Assembly (NCBI GenBank): GCA_027728645.1
Contig: JAQCAA010000004.1
Location: forward strand, 1 to 41,055
Direction: 5' to 3'
Length of the DNA stretch: 41,055 nucleotides
Origin: Actinomycetota bacterium
GTDB lineage: Bacteria; Actinomycetota; Acidimicrobiia; Spongiisociales; UBA5794
Made by a program: the position numbers and the translations under genes. Below the pieces are notes generated by a model. That model was not told the origin of the DNA. It ran no database searches and saw only the letters and a program-made list of their open reading frames with translations. This document shows, in pieces, positions 2,682 through 36,328 of the stretch; the stretch's first letter is position 1; the number at the start of each line of letters is the position of its first letter.

Positions 2682-3589
2682 TGACTCGAGCGGTGATCGA
2701 CCACTCAGCGGTCAGCGATGGTGTGCCACTCGGCCCGTTTACGACCTATCGAGTCGGTGGCAATGCCCGATGGTTTGCTGAGCCAACGGATCTGGAGGAG
2801 CTCCGATCGGTGCTGAAGACGACACCGAAGACGACCAAGATCGTGGTTCTCGGTAGGGGTTCGAACGTCGTGGTCTCTGACAAGGGAATTGACGGTCTTG
2901 TGGTGCGTCTCGGAGGTTCATTTGCTGCAGTGGACATTCGGGATGACGGGAGCGTCGTGTGTGGCGGAGCGCTTCCGCTTCCGCAACTCGCACGGGCAGC
3001 AGCGGCGGCCGGTCGGTCAGGGCTTGGCTTTTATGTCGGCATCCCAGGATCCGTTGGAGGGGCAGTTCGGATGAATGCAGGCGGTCACGGGTCAGACACG
3101 GCAGCGGTCCTGACTTCGATTGTTGTGGTCGACACAAAGTCGGGAGAACTGTCCATCCGATCGGTCAAGGACCTTGCGCTCACGTACCGATCGTCGAATG
3201 TGGGTCCAACGGAAATCGTTGTCCAAGCGACCTTTCACACAGAAGCCGGTGATACCCAAGAGCTAGAGGATGAGATCAGAAGCATCACTCGGTGGAGGAA
3301 GGACAACCAGCCTGGAGGCACCTATAACGCGGGCAGCGTTTTTAGGAATCCGCCGGACCAACACTCGGGTGCGATCATCGACTCCCTTGGGTTGAAGGGC
3401 ACTCGGATTGGACCAGTCAAGGTGTCTGAGATCCATGCCAATTTCATGGTTGCGGACTCCGATGCGACCGCCCAAGACATATGGAGATTCGTTCACACAA
3501 TCCAAAATCTTGTGCAAACCAGGACTGGGATTCTTCTTGAACCGGAAATCGTATTTCTCGGAGCATTTGAAAAGGAAGAATCGCGATGA
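2678..3589 (+). CDS. murB: UDP-N-acetylenolpyruvoylglucosamine reductase
   Basis: TTYRVGGNARWF, GRGSNVVVSD, GIPGSVGGAVRMNAGGHG, GGTYNAGSVFRNP motifs; ATGA overlap with murC. Confidence 0.95.
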   Translation: MMTRAVIDHSAVSDGVPLGPFTTYRVGGNARWFAEPTDLEELRSVLKTTPKTTKIVVLGRGSNVVVSDKGIDGLVVRLGGSFAAVDIRDDGSVVCGGALPLPQLARAAAAAGRSGLGFYVGIPGSVGGAVRMNAGGHGSDTAAVLTSIVVVDTKSGELSIRSVKDLALTYRSSNVGPTEIVVQATFHTEAGDTQELEDEIRSITRWRKDNQPGGTYNAGSVFRNPPDQHSGAIIDSLGLKGTRIGPVKVSEIHANFMVADSDATAQDIWRFVHTIQNLVQTRTGILLEPEIVFLGAFEKEESR

Positions 3590-7695: not shown

Positions 7696-10600
7696 CTATC
7701 GCAGAGCGATCGACAACCGAACCGATTCTCCTCCGAGGTCCACGGCTGGCGAATCGATATGGTCGATCTGAGACACCTCGTCTCCGAGGACTTCACCGGC
7801 GATCAGATGTGCGTGCTTGTCAAATGCGGCGACGACTGCGGCATCTTGTGTTGAGTACTCCACAGTGATGTGGTCTGTGACATTGAGCCCCAAATCCCTA
7901 CGGAGGCCTTGTATGCGGTTTACGAGCTCGCGTGCGATTCCCTCGATTCTCAGCTCTTGGTCGATGGCGCAGTCGAGTGCGACCGATAGGGAACCCTCTG
8001 ACGCCACAACCGTCCCTGCCCTGGGAGTCCTCTCGACCAAGATATCTCCGGCGCTGATCTCGTAGCCATGAGTGGTGACGGACTCTCCGTCCATCAACCT
8101 TTCGATGGTGGCATGGTCAACTGATGCGATGGCGAGTGCCACAGCTTTCATCTCTTTTCCGTACTTTGGCCCGAGGATCTTGAAGTTTGCCTTTGCCGAA
8201 AGGTCGATCAAGCCAGCTTCGTCTGCATGAACCTTGACGGACCTGACGTTCAGTTCCTCCGCAATGAGGGTGGCGTGGGCACCGACGGCTTCCCGTTCAT
8301 GCGGAGTTCGGGTCACGATGGTGACAGTCGAGAGTGGTTGCCGAACTCTGATCTCCTCGCGCTTTCTCAGGCCCCGTCCGAGGTTCACGATCGATCTGAC
8401 TGTCTCCATCGAGCGTTCGAGTTCGAGATCAATCGCTGATTCGTCTGCAACCGGATAATCCATATGGTGGACGCTCCGCGGAGCATCGGCGTTCATTGGG
8501 AGAACGAGACCTTGGTACATCTCCTCGGTAATGAACGGCAACACCGGCGCCGCAACCGTGGCGAAGGTCGTCAAGACCTCGTGCAAAGTGGCAAAAGCCG
8601 CAAGCTTGTCTCCGCTGTCGCCGGAGTCCCTCTGTGCCCAGAACCTGCGTCTGCTCCTGCGGATGTACCAGTTGGTGAGATGGCTGACGAACCCGATAAT
8701 TGGCGGAACAACGGAGAAAAGGCGGTAGGTCTCCATCTCTCGGTTGACCGATCCGATGAGACTCTGAAGCACCGAGATGATCCAGCGATCGATCTCGGGT
8801 CTCTCAGCCAGCGGTGGCGCGGAGGCAAGGTCATCCGGCGTAATGTGATCGGCCTCGGCGTACGTGTTGAAAAATGAGTACGCATTCCACAAGGGGAGGA
8901 GAACCGTACGCACGACGTCTTTGACGCCGTCTTCAGCAAACCGAAGCGGTTCACCTCGCACCACCGGTGAGTTGATGAGGTATGCACGAAGTGCATCCGC
9001 ACCGAACTCGTCGATCACGAGTGACGGGTCCGGATAATTCTTCAGCGACTTGGACATCTTTCGTCCGTCCTCGGCGAGGATCATCCCCGTGACGACACAG
9101 TTCTGGAACGGAGCGCTGTCCCTGATCGCAGTCGAAAGCACCAGGAGCGTATAGAACCATCCACGTGTCTGGTCAAGACCTTCGGCGATGAAGTCTGCAG
9201 GGAATCGCTCCTCGAATCGCTCCTTGTTCTCAAATGGATAATGGATCTGGGCGAATGGCATTGAGCCACTTTCGAACCAGCAGTCGAGAACTTCAGGGAC
9301 ACGCGTCATGGTTCCTTGGCACGACGCGCATTGCCACTTCACTTCGTCCACGAATTGTTTGTGGAGGTCATCGACCATCACTCCAGAGAGTTCTCTGAGT
9401 TCCTCGCGCGATGACATGCATACCGTCTCGGAGCAGTTCTCGCACTGCCAGATTGGAATGCACGATCCCCAGTACCGATTTCGACTTATGGCCCAGTCGC
9501 GCGCCCCTTCAAGCCAATTTCCAAAACGTTTTGTCCCGATCGCCTCTGGTACCCATCGGATATCTTCGTTGACCTCGACCATGCGGTCCTTGAACTTCTC
9601 GACCGCCACAAACCAGGTAGGGATCGCCTTGTAGATGAGTGGCGTGCCGGTTCTCCAGCAGAACGGATACGAGTGGTTGATGGTTGATCGGGCGAACAGT
9701 TTTCCAGAGTCCTTCAGCAGAGCGATCAGGGCTGCGTCAGCTTCCTTAACGTTGACCCCCTCGACTTCAGGTACGTCGGAGGTGAACTTCGCTTGAGCAT
9801 CAACAGGGTCAACGATTGCTTCAATCTTCGCCTCGCTTAGAGCAACGAAGTCTGTTTCGCCGTATGCGGGAGCCATGTGGACCAGTCCGGTGCCCTCGGA
9901 AACGGAGACCTCGGGCGACGAGATGACAACGAACGCACCGTTGGCCCTCTCATGTGCGAAATGGTCGAACGGCGGGACATATGAGATTCCAAGAAGATCG
10001 GAGCCTTTGTTTCTTGAAGTGACTGTGGCTCCTTCGCCGAAGACGGCTTCGACCCTGTCGGCGGCCAACCAAAACGCTCCAGCCTTGTCGGGGTGGGTGA
10101 CCCTTGCATACTCGTTTGCCTTGCCGACAGCGACAGCGAGGTTCCCAGGAAGCGTCCATGGGGTGGTCGTCCAGATCAGTAGCTTGTCACCTGATTCGGC
10201 TGGCCCATGGCCCTCCAACACCTCAAGCGAGACAGTGATTGCAGGGTCATCAACATCCCGGTAGTCAAGGTTGGCCTCGAAGTTCGAAAGCGGTGTTGCA
10301 GCACCGTAGGAGTAGGGGAGCACCTTGAAGTCTTGGTATATGAGGCCCTTCTCCCACAACTGTCCGAACACCCACCAGACGCTTTCCATGAAGTCGACGT
10401 CCATGGTCTTGTAATCGTCTTCGAAATCGACCCATCGACCGATTCTCGATGTGATGTCGTACCAGTCCTCGGTGGTGGTATTCACCATCGCTCGGCACGC
10501 CTCGTTGAAGGCAGCAACACCAATGTTCTGGATCTCGCGTGGCCCAGAGACTCCCAGCTGCTTCTCGACCTCCATTTCGACCGGCAGCCCGTGGGTATCC

Positions 10601-13026: not shown

Positions 13027-14498
13027 GCGTGCATTACGAACGGCTCTCGAACCTCGATGCTTCGTTTCTCGCGCTTGAGACCCGAGAGACCCATATGCAT
13101 GTAGGCGCTGTTGCCTTGTTCGGACATGGGCCCTCAACCGTTTCCGAAGGCGTAGACATCGACCTCATTCGTCGGATTATCGAGTCATGACTCCATCTGA
13201 TTCCCCGCTATCGCCAGCGCCTTGCCACCGTGCCGATCGAGCGTCATCCGGTCTGGGTCGATGACAAGCACTTCCATCTGGATTATCACGTCAGACACGT
13301 CGCGCTTCCGCACCCAGGCACGGACGCCCAGCTCAAGGACCTCGCTGGAAGATTGATGTCACAACAGCTTGATCGGTCGAAGCCGCTGTGGGAGCTCAAC
13401 GTTGTTGAAGGCTTGGCGGATGGTGGGTTTGCGATCATCACAAAGATTCACCACTGCATGATCGATGGAATGGCCAGTATAGATCTCATGGCCGTGATCC
13501 TCGATTTCGCGGACACCGTGGATGTCATTGAGCCCGTCGGTTGGAAGGCTCGGCCAGCGCCAAACGGCACAGAACTTGCGGTGAGAGAGATTGCGCGTTC
13601 TGTGTCATCAATGGTGGCGAGTCTTGGAGACCCTGCGACCCTCTCTCAAGGCGTTGGGACTACCGCGGGCGAGTTGAAGCGAAAATTCAAGGCCTCGATC
13701 GCATCGCTCGGTTCCGGTTGGCTGACCCCGACGGGGCGCACGGCTTTGAACGGACCAATTGGTCCCGGCCGGTCGTTTGAATGGCTCGACCTTTCGCTCT
13801 CGGAGATCAAGCAGATCAAGACCGCCCACAAGGTGACCGTGAATGACGTGATGCTCGCGATCGTTGCTGGAGCGGTTCGCTCATATCTTCTCGAAGAGGG
13901 TGAGATGACTGAAGAGGAGGTCGCGGAAACGGAGTTCCGCATCATGGCGCCGGTGTCAGTTCGGACGCGGGACGAACGAGGAACTATGGGTAACAAAGTC
14001 GCGATGTGGCTCCTCACTCTCCCAATCGGCGAACCAGATCCAGCCCAACGTCTGGCGGCTGTGACGCAGGCCACGAAAGAACTCAAGGAAACCGAACAAG
14101 CGCTTGGGGCGTCAACAATTGTTTCGCTTTCGACCGGTGCGCCTGCAGCGCTGGTTTCACTCGCTGCCAGACTGGCTTCGCGCGCACGGCCATTCAACAT
14201 GACGGTGACGAACGTTCCGGGCCCGCAGTTTCCCCTGTACTTGGCAGGTTCGCCGATGATCGCCACCTACCCGCTGGTTCCTCTTTGGCAGAGTCACGGT
14301 GTGGGTATTGCAATGTTCTCCCTCCTCGGCAGGGTCTTCATCGGACTCAATACCGATCGTGATCTGATTGCCGATCCAGCTCAGATCGCGAAGGCGCTGA
14401 CCAATGCGTTCGATGAACTGACACAAGCAAAGCCGCCAGCGGCGAAGACCACCAGCGCACGCAAAGCCAAAAAAACGCCCCCAATGGGAACGCGCTGA
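13023..14498 (+). pseudogene. Wax ester synthase/diacylglycerol acyltransferase (WS/DGAT) interrupted by one in-frame TGA at 13188-13190
   Basis: ATG 13023: MSVHYERLSNLDASFLALETRETHMHVGAVALF...IRRIIES*LHLIPRYRQRLATVPIERHPVWVDD...IHHCMIDGMASIDL (HHxxxDG motif). Same frame on both sides of the TGA. Confidence 0.85.
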
Positions 14499-14520
14499 GC
14501 CTTTGGCCCCGGCCAAAGGC
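14499..14520 (+). terminator. Hairpin abutting the WS/DGAT stop codon
   Basis: GCCTTTGGCC-CC-GGCCAAAGGC, perfect 10-bp inverted repeat immediately after TGA 14496-14498; no clear T tract (next bases GTTTACC). Confidence 0.5.
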
Positions 14521-14667
14521 GTTTACCGCCTACCGTTTACCGTTTACCGTCTTGGCAAGTAGCGATGCGAGCGCTGGGGAGCTTCCAGCCTTCAGCTGTC
14601 AGACCCGAAACTCTGTCGAGCCCGCGAACGCCGAGAACGGAAGACGGTAGACGGTAAACGGTAAACC
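14521..14667. repeat. Heptad-armed inverted repeat, family 1 copy A
   Basis: Left arm GTTTACC GCCTACC GTTTACC GTTTACC GTCTTGG (14521-14555); right arm GAGAACG GAAGACG GTAGACG GTAAACG GTAAACC (14633-14667). Confidence 0.9.
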
Positions 14668-15916: not shown

Positions 15917-18900
15917 TTGGCTAACAGCTTTGCACATCTTCATGTGCACACTGAGTTCTCGATGCTTGACGGTGCCGCGCGCGTGGCGGATCTTGTCAAA
16001 GCTGTGGCTGCTGACGGTCAGCCGGCCGTCGCCATCACCGATCACGGTGTTCTCTACGGAGTGGTTGATTTCGTGAAGGCAGCGCGGAAAGAGGGGATCA
16101 ATCCGATCGTTGGAATGGAGGCCTACCTGACACCAGGGTCGCGTTTCGACCGCCTCCCGCGCCGCGACGACAAGCGCTATCACATGACGATTTTGGCAGA
16201 GAACGACACCGGCTACCGCAATCTCGTCCAGCTCGCCTCGAAGGCCTACCTTGATGGCTACTACTACAAGCCCCGGATCGATGCAGCTCTCTCAGCATTC
16301 CGAAGGTTTGATAGGAACAACTGGTTGCCTCGGAGGGCATGTTCCGCAGTTACTCGGAGTCGACGAAGCAACGGATGACGACCAGCGCGGGCAGGAACGG
16401 GACTTTGCGCAGGCCCTTGCCACAGCTGGGATGTACAACGACATATTCGGCGCTGGAAACTATTTCATTGAGATCCAAGACCACGGTATCCCGGCGCAGC
16501 GCAAGATCATGGAGGATCTTCTCACGATTGGCAAGACGGTCGGAATCCCGTTGCTCGCTGCAAATGATTCGCACTACACACACGCCCATGAGGCGGACGC
16601 CCACGATGCGCTCCTCTGTATTCAGACCGGATCAACCAAGTCTGAGACGGAGCGTTTCAGGTTCCATTCGCAAGAGTTCTACGTCAAGTCTGCTGCGCAG
16701 ATGCGGTCGCTGTTTCCTTCTGCTGACTATCCAGATGCGTGTGACAACACGCTTCTGATAGCTGAGCGCGCCGAAGTGAACATCGAGTTCGACAGGACTC
16801 TCTTGCCACCGTTCACGGTGCCTGACGGTCACGATGAAGATTCCTATCTGAGGGAGCTTGTCATGGCGGGAGCCGCGATGAGATACGGAATCATCGATCC
16901 CGAAAAGGCTGAGCGCATCGACTACGAGCTCAGAGTGATATCTGATATGGGGTTTTCATCGTATTTCCTCATCGTGTGGGACCTTATTGCGTATGCGGCA
17001 GCACGTGGGATCCGAACTGGGCCAGGCAGGGGCAGTGCCGCAGGGTCGATCGTTGCCTACTGCCTCCGGATCACGGCCCTTGATCCCATTGAGTACGGTC
17101 TGATATTCGAGCGGTTCCTCAACCCCGGTCGTCGGGAAATGCCAGACATCGATATGGACTTCGATGAGCGGTACCGCGGTGAAATGATCAAATACACCGC
17201 AGAGAAGTACGGAACAGACCATGTAGCCCAGATCATCACGTTTTCCACCATCAAGGGAAAGCAAGCGATTCGGGATTCAGCGAGAGTGCTTGGCTATCCG
17301 TATTCGACAGGTGATCAGCTCGCGAAGGCCATGCCACCTGCAATTCTCGGTAACGATGCCACCATCGACCAATGCCTGACCAAGCCCGATAGGGAGGCAT
17401 CGGCGGAAGAGCGGGATCACTTCAACGCCGCAGCCGGATTGCGTGACCTCCTCGTCACACTCGATGGTGCACCAGAAATCATCGAAACGGCTCGAGGGCT
17501 TGAGGGTCTGCGTCGCCAAGACTCGATTCACGCAGCAGCGGTCGTGATCTCGCCTGAGCCACTTACGAACATTGTTCCCATCCAACGAAAGGGCGATGGA
17601 GCCGAGGTGGTGACCCAATTCGAAATGCACGGCGTCGAGGACCTCGGGCTTCTCAAGATGGATTTCCTCGGGCTGAGGAACCTCGCGACGATTGAGCGGT
17701 CCCTCGAGCTCATCGAACAAAATACAGGCGAGCGTCCCGACATTGACAATGTAACCCTCGATGACGAGAAGGTCTTCGACATGTTCAGGGCCGGTGACTC
17801 GATGGGCGTCTTCCAGTTCGAAGGTGGACCGATGAGGGCCCTAATGCGCAACCTGGGGCCAGACGAGTTTGAGCACCTCATCGCCCTCAACGCGCTGTAT
17901 CGACCCGGTCCTCTCGGTGCAGGGATGCACCTTGAATACGCCGACAGAAAGAACGGTAAGTCTCCAGTCGAGTACCTCCACGACGACCTTGAACCAGTGC
18001 TGTCAGGCACCTACGGGGTCATGGTGTACCAGGAACAGGTGATGCAGACCGCTGAAAGAATCGCAGGGTTCTCGATGAGTGATGCGGATAGCTTGCGCAA
18101 GGCAATGGGAAAGAAGATTCCAGCCGTCATGCAGGAGCAGGAGGCAAAGTTCGTCGCGGGATGTGTTACGAACGGATACGAAGAGGACCTCGGAAAGAAA
18201 CTCTTCGGGTTCATCGAGCACTTTGCCGGGTACGGCTTCAACAAGAGTCACTCCGCTGCCTATGCACTCGTGGCCTACCAAACGGCATGGCTGAAGGTCC
18301 ACTATCCGGCTGAGTACATGGCTGCTCTGCTGACATCTGCAAAGACCAACAAGGACCGGACAGCGGCGTATCTGCACGAGTGTCGGATGATGGGCATCAC
18401 GGTTGCAGTGCCGGGGGTCAATTTCTCTCAGAGGGACTTCGGGGCACACAACGGCGCGATCGTCTTTGGTCTGTCAGCTGTGAGAAATGTCGGCGAGGCT
18501 GTGACGGACCTCGTTGTTGCTGAGAGGAACGAGAACGGGCCTTATGCATCGTTCTTCGACTTCATCGACAGAGTGGACGTTCAGGCGTTGAACAAGCGCA
18601 CGATTGAGTCGATGATCAAGGCGGGAGCGTTTGACAGCCTCAACCATTCAAGGCGAGGTCTGCTTGAGATTGCCTATCAGATCGTCGATGCCACCGTGAC
18701 GAGACGCAAAGCGGAGGAGGCAGGGCAGTTCAGCTTGTTCGGAGGGGCAACATCAACCGTCACCGATGTCCAGCCTGTCATTCCAGAACATGAGTGGGAT
18801 AAGAAGATTCGGCTCGGCTTCGAAAAGGAAATGCTTGGACTGTATGTGTCTGATCATCCACTGCTCGGTGCCGAGAAGCTCATGAACACGATGACTGACA

Positions 18901-30338: not shown

Positions 30339-30355
30339 GCGAGCCTTCGGCTCGC
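30339..30355 (+). terminator. Short GC hairpin just after the trpE stop
   Basis: GCGAGCC-TTC-GGCTCGC, 7-bp stem starting 4 nt after TAA 30333-30335. Confidence 0.45.
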
Positions 30356-30356
30356 T

Positions 30357-30490
30357 GTTTACCGTTTACCGTTTACCGTCTACCGTTTTCTGGCGACGAC
30401 TTACTCATTCTTGGTTGGTGCCGCCTGATCTTGGAGTTTCTCGAATTCGACCGCCGAGAACGGTGGACGGTAGACGGTAGACGGCAAACT
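30357..30490. repeat. Heptad-armed inverted repeat, family 1 copy B
   Basis: Left arm GTTTACC x3, GTCTACC, GTTTTCT (30357-30391); right arm GAGAACG GTGGACG GTAGACG GTAGACG GCAAACT (30456-30490). Confidence 0.9.
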
Positions 30491-30522
30491 GAAGATGGAG
30501 GAGGGAAGCCTCCTCCATCTTC
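30491..30522 (+). terminator. Strong hairpin between trpE and the two-component system
   Basis: GAAGATGGAGGAGG-GAAG-CCTCCTCCATCTTC, perfect 14-bp stem with 4-nt loop, followed by ACACTTCTCTTAC. Confidence 0.65.
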
Positions 30523-30575
30523 ACACTTCTCTTACATCTGGGTCGTACGCTGTGGTCCATACCTTGGAGGATGAC

Positions 30576-31257
30576 GTGTCAGGTGGCACCGTGTTGCTCA
30601 TAGAAGACCATGTAGAGATTGCGGACCTGCTTCGGCTGTATGTCGAGCGCGAGGGATTCACGCTGATCCACGCTGATCCACGCTGAGTCTGGGGAGGAAG
30701 GCCTTGAGCGACTCAGTGAGCGGTCGCCCCGTGCCGTGCTCCTCGATTTGGGTCTCCCTGGTCTGGACGGTGTTGCGGTCTGCCGAGAGATACGGAAACA
30801 ATCGGATGTCCCGATCTTGATGCTGACCGCTCGGGACTCTGAGACGGACACGATCATCGGTCTCGAAGTCGGTGCAGACGACTACATCACAAAGCCGTTT
30901 TCTCCAAAGGAGGTTGTGGCACGGCTCAACGCCGTGCTGCGGAGGGCAGAGGAGCGACCGGCAACGGCAGCCGTTCGGGTTGTTCAGGGCTGTGCCGTCG
31001 ATTCGGGGCGCAGAGAAGTCGTGACTCCGTCCGGTGAGACAATTCGCCCAACGGCTAGGGAGTTCGATTTGCTTTGGTATCTCGTTGAGCACGCAGGACT
31101 TGTTCTTTCGCGCTCACAGATTCTCGACGCGGTCTGGGGGTACGACTACTTTGGTGAAACACGAACCGTCGACGTGCATATCAGGCAGCTCCGGAAGAAG
31201 ATTGATGAACTGCCAATCGAGACGGTGTGGGGCGTCGGCTATCGGATCGACCGCTGA
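30576..31257 (+). pseudogene. OmpR-family response regulator interrupted by a 10-bp tandem duplication
   Basis: GTG 30576 with SD ggagg: MSGGTVLLIEDHVEIADLLRLYVEREGFTLIHA, then ACGCTGATCC x2 shifts frame; downstream frame reads AESGEEGLERLSERSPRAVLLDLGLPGLDGVAV...ADDYITKPF... winged-helix C-terminus. Confidence 0.88.
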
Positions 31258-32654
31258 TGCAAAAGCGGATCGTCCTTGCAACAGCGATTGTCGCTGTCAT
31301 CACTCTGATTGTTGGAGTCGCCGCCCTTGTTGTGATCCGCACCGCGGTCGAAACCAGAGCTGAGACCGAGTTGGGACGACAGGCTGAGGTCGCAGCAACA
31401 CAAATAGAAGAGGATCTTGAGCGGCTGAATTTCAGACCGTCTGAGAACCCCGGCGCTCCACTCGCAAGATACAGGGCAGAGTTGGAGCGGTCATTGGCAA
31501 GGGTTGCGAGCCTTGGAGGCCACGACATCGTAGAAGCGACGATCGCGGTGGGTCAGAGGGAAACCCCCATTACCCAGCCTTTGGTGCTGATTCCGTTGCT
31601 TCCAGACAACGTTGAAGACGGCGATGTAGTGACGGTCGAATTCGACGGTCAACCCATGCTCGTTGCGATCGAAGTTGTGGACACTCCGTTGGTGACACTT
31701 ACCGTCGCGATTGGCCGGTCCCAGCCTTTGATCTCCGCTGCGCTCGTCACCGTCCCTGTCGCAATCGCGGTCGGCGTTGGCGCTGCGTTGATCATCGGTC
31801 TTGGGACGTGGTTTGGGCGGTCGCTCTCGCGCCGACTTCGTGGACTTGAAGATGCAGCAACCTTGGTAGGCGGCGGCAATCTTGAGGCTCGTTCGGCCGT
31901 CGAAGGCGACGACGAGATCGCGGCGGTGGCTATTGCATTCAACTCGATGACTGAGCAACTCCAAGCCGTTCGAACGCGGGAGCGAGAGTTTCTCATGTCT
32001 GTCAGCCATGACCTGAGAACGCCCCTGACCACGATCAAGGGCTATGCCGAGGCTCTCGACGCTGGTGACATCGAAGGAGACGATCTTGCACGGGTCGCAG
32101 GGGTGCTCAACACCCAGGCTGACCAACTCTCACGGCTGGTCGAAGATGTGATGTTGCTCGGGAGACTCGAGGCTCGACACTACACAATGCGCCCCGAACC
32201 AGTTGACATCGCAGCGCTGGTTACGGGGGTCAGCGATGGCTTCGCTCAGGGGGCAAAGTCGTCGTCGGTAGTCGTGGCGGTTGAGGCCCAAGAGGCTGGC
32301 GACCGAATGGTCGACCCTGACCGTGTCACGCAGATCTTGTCGAACCTCATCGAGAACGCTCTCCGCTACACGCCAGAAATGGGTGTGATCACGATCTCGC
32401 TTGTCTCAAACGATGATGAGTTTCGGGTCACAGTGAGCAACACCGGCACGGCGATAGCGGAAAGAGATGTTCCGAGAGTCTTTGACCGCCTCTATGTCGC
32501 AGACCGGTACCGAGCACTCAGGCCATCCGGATCGGGGCTTGGGCTAGCGATCGTCGCAGAGCTTGTCGAGGCAATGGGTGGAACAATCCACTGCGAGAGC
32601 GACGAAACAGCAGGAACAGCTTTTGAAGTAAAGGTGCCGGCGGAGAGGATCTAG
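31257..32654 (+). CDS. Sensor histidine kinase (HAMP, HisKA, HATPase_c)
   Basis: VSHDLRTPLTTIKGYAEAL (H-box), QILSNLIENALRYTP (N-box), RPSGSGLGLAIVAELVEAMGG (G-box); ATG overlaps the RR stop. Confidence 0.95.
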   Translation: MQKRIVLATAIVAVITLIVGVAALVVIRTAVETRAETELGRQAEVAATQIEEDLERLNFRPSENPGAPLARYRAELERSLARVASLGGHDIVEATIAVGQRETPITQPLVLIPLLPDNVEDGDVVTVEFDGQPMLVAIEVVDTPLVTLTVAIGRSQPLISAALVTVPVAIAVGVGAALIIGLGTWFGRSLSRRLRGLEDAATLVGGGNLEARSAVEGDDEIAAVAIAFNSMTEQLQAVRTREREFLMSVSHDLRTPLTTIKGYAEALDAGDIEGDDLARVAGVLNTQADQLSRLVEDVMLLGRLEARHYTMRPEPVDIAALVTGVSDGFAQGAKSSSVVVAVEAQEAGDRMVDPDRVTQILSNLIENALRYTPEMGVITISLVSNDDEFRVTVSNTGTAIAERDVPRVFDRLYVADRYRALRPSGSGLGLAIVAELVEAMGGTIHCESDETAGTAFEVKVPAERI

Positions 32655-32660
32655 CAGCAG

Positions 32661-32829
32661 ATGACAGAGGACAGATGACGGACTACGGATTTCGGAAGCG
32701 CCTAGCGCCCACCGCCTTGCGCCTACCGTGCAGCAAGAGCTAGCGGTTGTGAGTCCCGGTCCGTAACCCGTCTCTGTCTTCTGTCTTCTGTCCTCTGTCC
32801 TCTGTCCTCTGTCCTCTGTCCTCTGCCTA
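32661..32829. repeat. Heptad-armed inverted repeat, family 2 copy C
   Basis: Left arm ATGACAG AGGACAG ATGACGG ACTACGG (32661-32688); right arm CTGTCTT x2, CTGTCCT x5, CTGCCTA (32774-32829); inner array GCGCCTA GCGCCCA CCGCCTT GCGCCTA (32698-32725). Confidence 0.92.
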
Positions 32830-32839
32830 GTCTGGCCTC

Positions 32840-33607
32840 ATGCTCCAAGAGATCATTGTTTCTGCCGATGAGCGGGCCCGTCACACCGATATGTTGGTTG
32901 ATGAACTGCGGGAGAAGGCTGCGATTGCACCACCCGTTCGCGACTTTGCCGGTGCATTGATGTCGCCCGGGCTATCTGTCATCGCTGAGATCAAACGAAG
33001 GTCACCGTCTGCCGGAGACATCGACATTCAGCTTGACCCGGCGAAGCAGGCCATCGCATATGAGTCAGGGGGCGCGGATGCAGTCTCGGTGCTCACCGAA
33101 CCGGACTTCTTCGGAGGGTCGCTTCAGGACTTGGAGTCTGTCCGATCTGCTGTCTCGATCCCCGTGCTCCGGAAGGACTTCACAAGGCGACCGTCCCAAA
33201 TCTGGGAGGCGCGAGCGTCCGGCGCTGACGCGGTTCTCATTATCGTGGCATCGCTCACGGACGATGCCATTGCGATACTTCTCGCGACGGCGAAGGAGTC
33301 TGGTATGACAGCGATTGTTGAGGCGCACACGACCTCCGAGGTGAAACGCGCTCTCCTCGCGGGAGCTACCGTGATTGGTGTCAACAACCGGGATCTCCAA
33401 ACGTTTGAAACGGATCTTTCGACGTCCGAGATCGCAGCGATCCACCTTCCGCGGGGAGTGGTGAAGATCGCGGAATCGGGAGTTTCCTCCGTTGAGGGGG
33501 CTGCGCGGATGGCACGGGCCGGATACGACGCAATTCTTGTTGGTGAGGCCCTCGTGCGGTCGACTGATCCCGCTCGGTTGGTTGCAGAGCTGAAAGCGGC
33601 ACGATGA
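32840..33607 (+). CDS. trpC: Indole-3-glycerol phosphate synthase
   Basis: SVIAEIKRRSPSAGDI, PVLRKDF, IGVNNRDLQTFETDL, AESGVSS motifs. Confidence 0.95.
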   Translation: MLQEIIVSADERARHTDMLVDELREKAAIAPPVRDFAGALMSPGLSVIAEIKRRSPSAGDIDIQLDPAKQAIAYESGGADAVSVLTEPDFFGGSLQDLESVRSAVSIPVLRKDFTRRPSQIWEARASGADAVLIIVASLTDDAIAILLATAKESGMTAIVEAHTTSEVKRALLAGATVIGVNNRDLQTFETDLSTSEIAAIHLPRGVVKIAESGVSSVEGAARMARAGYDAILVGEALVRSTDPARLVAELKAAR

Positions 33608-35428: not shown

Positions 35429-36239
35429 ATCCGGTCAACAACGCTTGGCTGAACTCTTCGCAGGAGTCAAAGCGGAAGGGAGGGCGGCTCTTCTTCCGTA
35501 TCTCACGGCTGGAATCCCGACGCCGGAGCAGTCTGTAGAGCTTTTCGTCGCAATGGCAGAAGCAGGTGCCGACGGTTTCGAGGTTGGTATCCCGTACGCC
35601 GATCCACTCATGGACGGCCCTGTCATTATGCGCGCTGGTGAGCAGGCGCTACGCAACGGAGTCACTGTTGACGTAGCTCTCAGGGTGGCGCAGCAGGTCG
35701 TTGAGAGAACAGCCAAGCCGGTGCTCGTGATGACCTATGTTAATCCCGTGCTTCGCATCGGTATCGACCGGTTCTTCGAAAAGGTTGCATCGGCCGGGGT
35801 TTCGGGAGTGATTATTGCTGACCTGCCTGTCGACGAAGCATTGCCCTACCTCGTTGCGGCAAAGCAGGCCCAGGTCGGAATCGCGCTCTTTGTTGCTCCG
35901 ACGACAGATAGGACACGACTGGTTTCGGTCGTTGAGAGCAATCCCTCCTTTGTCTATGCCGTTGCCGAAATCGGTGTCACAGGTGAGCGGTCGGCGAATT
36001 CGGCGAATACCAGAGCACTTGCATCCCGGATCAGAGCACTATCAGATGTCCCGATCGTGTTTGGCGTCGGTATATCGACGCCAGAGCACGCAGCCCATGC
36101 GGCTGCCGATGGCGACGGAGTGATCGTCGGGACGGCAATCGTACGCAGAGTCCTCGAAGCCCAATCTCACGAAGAAGCGAAGGCGGCACTGACACTTGCC
36201 GTATCGGAACTGGCCGTGGCTGTACGCAGGAGCAGATGA
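35421..36239 (+). CDS. trpA: Tryptophan synthase alpha chain
   Basis: [54 protein letters not shown]; stop lies inside the start of the adjacent heptad element. Confidence 0.95.
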
Positions 36240-36328
36240 CAGACGCCAGATGACAGATGACAGATGAGGGTCTTGGTCTGTGAGGGAGCGAGCGACCGGT
36301 CCGTCCTCTGCCGTCTGTCCTCTGCTCC
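36236..36328. repeat. Heptad-armed inverted repeat, family 2 copy D
   Basis: Left arm ATGACAG ACGCCAG ATGACAG ATGACAG ATGAGGG (36236-36270); right arm CCGTCCT CTGCCGT CTGTCCT CTGCTCC (36301-36328). Confidence 0.9.

Follow-up and report, generated by a model that had tools for sequence, protein, structure and literature searches.

The HK-trpC Gap and Its Heptad Arrays

The stretch considered here comprises 175 nt, at positions 32655 to 32829 of the window (the whole 41,055 nucleotides of DNA analysed), between a histidine kinase (HK) gene and trpC. Its features are as follows, with heptad families named F1 and F2 as defined below.

31257 to 32654, forward strand: HK gene with HAMP, HisKA and HATPase_c domains (Pfam); stop codon TAG at 32652-32654, the 3' end adjoining the insert
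32655 to 32829, no strand assigned: whole putative insert, about 160 nt beyond the 19-48 nt gap of the nearest relatives
32661 to 32681, forward strand: left arm of F1 heptads, ATGACAG (32661-32667), AGGACAG (32668-32674) and ATGACGG (32675-32681), which read outward from the gene as CAGAGGA/CAGATGA
32682 to 32695, forward strand: inner left heptads ACTACGG (32682-32688) and ATTTCGG (32689-32695), with a predicted hairpin partner, ccgtaacccgt, near 32761-32771
32698 to 32725, forward strand: embedded F2-type array GCGCCTA GCGCCCA CCGCCTT GCGCCTA, by direct reading
32774 to 32829, forward strand: right arm (F1), CTGTCTT twice (32774-32787), CTGTCCT five times (32788-32822) and CTGCCTA (32823-32829), the inverse of the left arm
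32828 to 32839, forward strand: putative leaderless start signal of trpC from its sequence signature, -10 box TAGTCT (32828-32833) plus 6 nt
32840 to 33607, forward strand: trpC, indole-3-glycerol phosphate synthase (Pfam and orthologues)

The arrays in this gap were called independently by Tandem Repeats Finder, and direct reading agrees to the base with the earlier, sequence-only reading of the left, embedded and right arrays, including the 21 nt between the exact GCGCCTA units (32698-32704 and 32719-32725) and the 10 nt between the end of the right arm (32829) and the trpC ATG (32840); on the left it adds a further heptad, ATTTCGG. The embedded array had been described as a third heptad array; it is not a new family but F2 (CCGCCTA/GCGCCTA), which 11 further places in the genome sample match over lengths of 18-37 nt with 81-100% identity. 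Regarding the proposed inverted pair, the left and right arms are indeed complementary, with a predicted RNA minimum free energy of -89.9 kcal/mol against -68.3 +/- 4.8 for shuffles (z -4.5). The DNA fold gives the same z as the RNA fold, and the foldback spans nearly the full length of the insert. Only the tRNA was matched in a search of Rfam, and the stretch had no match in a plasmid collection.

A Genome-Wide Family of Heptad Arrays

The window is contig C55 of a fragmented metagenome-assembled genome (G000) of 1.95 Mb in 158 contigs, 93.8% complete. The sample read covers 0.82 Mb of this genome in stretches, partly on contigs chosen for their hits, and genes were called by codon bias for this analysis rather than by a standard gene finder. 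In this sample one detector found 98 arrays of period seven, while every other period between 4 and 13 had 0-4 arrays. After Markov-1 shuffling of the first 0.6 Mb the counts were 1, 0 and 0, so the heptads of the HK-trpC gap are far above chance. Run over periods 4 to 15, the detector returned 0-7 arrays for each period other than seven, and 66 of the 98 period-seven arrays register at 14 too. Among whole contigs sampled, 5 of 65 arrays reach contig ends, where long arrays may be truncated. As the contigs that were not chosen for hits hold 21 arrays in 304 kb, roughly 130 should be present in the whole genome by extrapolation.

The units fall into F1 (CTGTCCT), F2 (CCGTYTA), F3 (CAGCTYT) and a few others. 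The earlier suggestion that the HK-trpC stretch is a member of a repeated family holds, with 55 matching places in the genome, and so does the suggestion that its heptads are prone to slippage, which is supported by exact CTGTCCT runs of 2 to 10 units in the sample. Three sister inserts lie in the same window:

14520 to 14663, no strand assigned: insert with F2 arms filling a convergent gene gap
30350 to 30489, no strand assigned: insert with F2 arms between trpE and a response regulator gene
36233 to 36324, no strand assigned: insert with F1 arms in the gap from trpA to tRNA-Leu, its first heptad containing the trpA stop

The stop codon TGA of trpA sits in the first F1 heptad, CAGATGA (36233-36239), and heptads can provide the stop codons of genes that they abut. 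Positions 30490-30523, after the trpE-side F2 insert, hold a 15-bp hairpin with a pyrimidine tail followed by TTCACACTTCTCTTACATC, conserved in UBA5794.

Most of the array sequence is intergenic, as only 7.1% of array bases fall inside predicted genes in a sample that is 88.1% coding, and 43 of the 58 gene-proximal arrays are at stop codons. Where genes flank a locus on both sides, 13 of 47 loci lie in convergent gaps, which make up 9.9 of the 84.9 kb of intergenic DNA, and 3 in divergent gaps. This placement, together with the strong folding, is what would be expected if the arms were kept at gene ends as transcription terminators or stabilisers of mRNA 3' ends. That explanation is possible but on balance doubtful, because the hairpins are followed by no T run as in an intrinsic terminator, partners are missing for F3 and for many of the F1 arrays, and the arms do not clearly co-vary. 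Moreover, the gaps in this genome are tiny, so that any tolerated insert would be expected to abut stop codons.

Comparison with Related Genomes

The TrpC protein is 71% identical to that of a congener, Acidimicrobiia bacterium UBA5794, and the gene order trpE-RR-HK-trpC-X-trpB-trpA-polA (RR, response regulator; X, one gene between trpC and trpB) is conserved. The HK-trpC gap measures 19-48 nt in L047, L048, L050 and L051, compared with 185 nt here, and no arrays occupy this position in any relative examined. Because the gap in relatives is only tens of bases long, the sequence comparison indicates that about 160 nt were inserted here; the boundaries are approximate, as the comparison is made at genus distance, with a protein identity of about 70% to the nearest empty sites.

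Other gaps have turned over as well. The trpA-tRNA gap has F1 heptads here and CTGACTT/CTGACGT heptads in UBA5794, and across 59 adjacent gene pairs conserved with G001, three have arrays only here, three only there and two have arrays of different units in both. The triple unit (CTGTCCT)3 was counted 80 times in this genome and never in the order's 137 other genomes, three congeners included. Congeners and some other genera possess heptads with other units (CAGACGT, CCGATGA, CAGAAGT, CAGACAG, CAGTTCA and more), many genera of the order have no heptad arrays in 20 kb samples, and a phylum-wide scan of 397 genomes for CAG at seven-base intervals was positive in 45, with a patchy distribution. 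In the sample of the congener G002 (L140-L143), 8 arrays of period eight accompany 15 of period seven, the only sampled genome with an excess of period eight. A run of poly-C of more than 100 nt at a contig end (L145, 4517-4646) is probably an assembly artefact.

The patchy distribution, the fast turnover of units among congeners and the varying exact run lengths could also come from a neutral heptameric satellite, arising by polymerase slippage wherever intergenic sites tolerate it and spreading through recombination, with neither an insert nor a function, its polarity being that of a few copied founders. The depletion of arrays from genes and divergent gaps would fit purifying selection, and slippage of 7 nt has been blamed for such repeats in the literature (PMC4692102). 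Nevertheless, we regard a satellite as a rather unlikely origin, as slippage alone gives neither an opposite arm, nor equal polarity at both gene edges, nor the new sequence of about 100 nt that the arms enclose.

Polarity, Arms and Interiors of the Inserts

Polarity was read on the outward strand for arrays no farther than 60 nt from the edge of a predicted gene; the 37 of 98 arrays beyond that distance are uninformative in this respect. Read in this way, F1 is AGGACAG in 29 of 30 arrays, F2 is CCGTCTA in 20 of 20 and F3 is CAGCTTT in 7 of 7, giving 56 of 57 in total, counts that are not independent, as copies share descent. The polarity is identical at stops and at starts, and gene edges without arrays are balanced (CMG:CKG, 1268:1226).

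Two-armed inserts number 20, all of those of F1 being AGGACAG...CTGTCCT and all of those of F2 CCGTCTA...TAGACGG, and they fold as long hairpins with a median z of -5.9. Inserts with ends of different families also exist (F1 with F3, F2 with F1), so each end holds its polarity on its own and pairing of the arms cannot be required. Compensatory co-evolution of the arms was examined by arm-swap permutations and set aside: an F1 arm fits the other arm of its own element no better than one from another element, the own-element value being reached in 786 of 2000 permutations, and F2 arms fit only marginally better (87 of 2000).

Since every end keeps its polarity separately, mixed ends included, the ends might be operator- or transposase-like protein-binding sites that act as pairs and are recognised through a CMG repeated on one strand every 7 nt, comparable to the paired MTYCTGA heptads on opposite strands in Geobacter that were proposed as sites of a global regulator (PMC2700814). 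This seems unlikely, as the explanation comes with no candidate protein and the units differ between congeners. Regarding candidate proteins, the 93.8% complete genome G000 gave no match to a RAYT transposase (Y1_Tnp, PF01797) and contains no reverse transcriptase (RVT_1) and no TnpB, by which RAYT/REPIN, reverse transcriptase and TnpB were all rejected as drivers. It carries one IS110 gene and five rve genes, for which no link to the inserts was shown.

The interiors of F2 inserts have nothing in common with each other, and F1 interiors contain a short core like CAGACCGGTCGCTTCGCTCCCTCACAGA, common to some loci only. This core together with one AGGACAG heptad is itself found in tandem, in units of about 31 nt (GGAGGACAGACCGTTCGCTTTGCTCTCTTAC), at L113 7570-7770 and 11650-11780 and at L126 near 9957. 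In L101 451-686, F1 arms flank a tRNA-like gene, forming a foldback of 236 nt with the tRNA in its loop. In addition, several heptad arrays are adjoined by a second repeat, likewise dispersed, about 50-130 nt long and with the core CCACCCTCCTGGCTCGCAAGCTCGCCCGTCCTCCCTC...:

L097 ~1-320: second dispersed repeat
L102 ~300-620: second dispersed repeat
L103 ~9600-9940: second dispersed repeat
L110 ~60-400: second dispersed repeat
L114 ~16300-16870: second dispersed repeat
L127 ~8215-8550: second dispersed repeat
L131 ~3240-3560: second dispersed repeat
L132 ~14030-14219: second dispersed repeat

The Start of trpC

Leaderless transcription is known in actinobacteria, and trpC appears to be read in this manner, from a leaderless start and without a ribosome-binding site. 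A TANNNT motif stands 5-7 nt before the start codon in 21 of 32 trpC orthologues with a readable start, usually as TAGCAT-N6-ATG/GTG, and a Shine-Dalgarno (SD)-like motif in one of the 32; none was found upstream of trpC here. The corresponding signature at this locus is TAGTCT-GGCCTC-ATG, directly 3' of the array, its -10 box overlapping the final heptad by the last two bases of that heptad. Genome-wide, TANNNT shows a spike at a spacing of exactly 6 nt from the start codon (52 of 562 genes, compared with roughly 1-8 at most other distances). The signature is also present in 7 of 13 genes with an array at most 60 nt upstream, compared with 115 of 742 (Fisher p 0.002). A leaderless gene would need little upstream DNA, and inserts may therefore be tolerated up to the -10 box.

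These results bear on the earlier proposal that the array sits in the ribosome-binding region of trpC, where its copy number would tune translation. The end of the right arm only 10 nt before the ATG invites this reading, and TAACTGA heptads in Beggiatoaceae do end just upstream of start codons (PMC4679880). It is nonetheless very improbable and was rejected, because the conserved leaderless signature immediately follows the array; SD-like motifs are wanting here and in nearly all trpC orthologues, and the site has no arrays in all relatives examined. The array would instead occupy the -35 position. Such arrays should accordingly not be read as ribosome-site regulators where the downstream gene is leaderless.

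Proposed Origin of the Array

The explanation that we consider the most satisfactory, and probable rather than certain, is that the array is the polar end, similar to a terminal inverted repeat (TIR), of a dispersed non-coding insert of the intergenic heptameric repeat class, enlarged by slippage and forming a stem-loop at the 3' end of HK. The insert would be an interval-filling, non-coding element with tandem heptad arrays of fixed polarity at both ends, reading outward from the flanking gene as CAGAGGA/CAGATGA (F1), CCGTCTA (F2) or CAGCTTT (F3). Having presumably landed in the short gap between the HK stop codon and the trpC promoter, it would then have gained heptads on the spot by slippage. 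At the RNA level, a long stem-loop made by the two arms may provide the HK message with a structured 3' end and perhaps set this message apart from trpC, which would be read from its own conserved leaderless promoter, with the -10 box right after the last heptad. Because of that position of the -10 box, a change in copy number would shift or replace the -35 side only.

The near-empty gap in relatives, the dispersed and mostly intergenic arrays, the polarity of the ends and the predicted foldback are established at the level of sequence. Against an insert stand the unrelated F2 interiors, which differ from what is normal for copies of a miniature inverted-repeat element (MITE), the mixing of end families, the lack of a U-tract after the hairpins and the lack of clear co-variation of the arms within elements. 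The genus offers a test system, since units turn over at the same gaps between congeners, polarity is fixed and empty sites can be compared; insertion, slippage and binding models predict different, testable outcomes in it.

Relation to Known Repeats

To our knowledge, observations of heptameric repeats in scattered bacteria go back decades and no mechanism for them is accepted. The locus belongs to the class of intergenic heptameric tandem repeats (PMC4692102), as period seven is over-represented, the arrays are mainly intergenic and occur at many loci, and close convergent inverted pairs are present as the two-armed inserts. The repeats of that class in Xanthomonas (GGGAATC) and Nostoc (GGGGA(C/T)T) are about 90% intergenic, at nearly 190 loci per genome, near the end of the upstream ORF, with 70-75 convergent inverted pairs, few copies between divergent genes and lengths that differ between related species (PMC4692102). 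The period, the intergenic location, the proximity to the upstream ORF end and the convergent inverted pairs are all found here. However, each of those genomes has one unit of the G-quadruplex type (PMC4692102), whereas here there are at least three unit families without GGG (AGGACAG, TAGACGG and AAAGCTG hold no G-tract for quadruplexes as in the GGGAATC subclass), ends of different families can be mixed and units are replaced between congeners.

TAACTGA direct repeats of Beggiatoaceae, cyanobacteria and Bacteroidetes are likewise intergenic heptads, and by our own reading of Table 1 in that work their dominant orientation at starts is TCAGTTA, that is, CAG outward (PMC4679880). Unlike the arrays described here, whose units are CTGTCCT, CCGTYTA and CAGCTYT, they have one unit, are mostly single-sided before start codons and form almost no inverted pairs (PMC4679880). 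Geobacter metallireducens has paired MTYCTGA heptad sites besides GGACCGG heptad elements; the former resemble the present arrays in their five tandem heptads, opposite-strand pairs at variable distance and a reverse complement that contains CAG, but number only 16, have other units and were read as regulator binding sites (PMC2700814). In the P6b element of the Nostoc tRNA-Leu(UAA) intron, a complementary stem of seven-base repeats gains and loses whole units, as seems to happen here, but at one locus within a group I intron (PMC4476775). REP/REPIN elements and MITEs are similar in being dispersed and intergenic, with inverted ends and stem-loops, and the terminal inverted repeats of MITEs have their counterpart in the fixed outer-to-inner polarity of the arms. 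The present inserts differ in that the genome has no RAYT, the interior is mostly not common and the ends are tandem heptads.

A common machinery may equip intergenic inserts with heptad ends in many bacteria, ignoring four of the seven bases and reading outward C-(A/C)-G, so that units would vary by species with polarity and period fixed, and the published STRR, TAACTGA and Geobacter pair repeats would all be its traces. This idea is speculative, and we hold it to be improbable. Outward C-(A/C)-G was found in 20 of 20 arrays in G015, but G001, G002, G003 and G020 jointly give only 25 against 14 (p 0.11), which makes it no firm rule outside the source genome and G015. A contig from a viral collection, L249, contradicts the polarity rule, its F2 arms being reversed relative to the source genome; L244, L245 and L247 have F1-like arms arranged as in that genome. 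In the IMG/VR contigs L243-L248, L249 and L250, with 43-66% GC, F1 and F2 units recur, pointing to recurrence or exchange between distant organisms, and L247 and L248 carry many further units.
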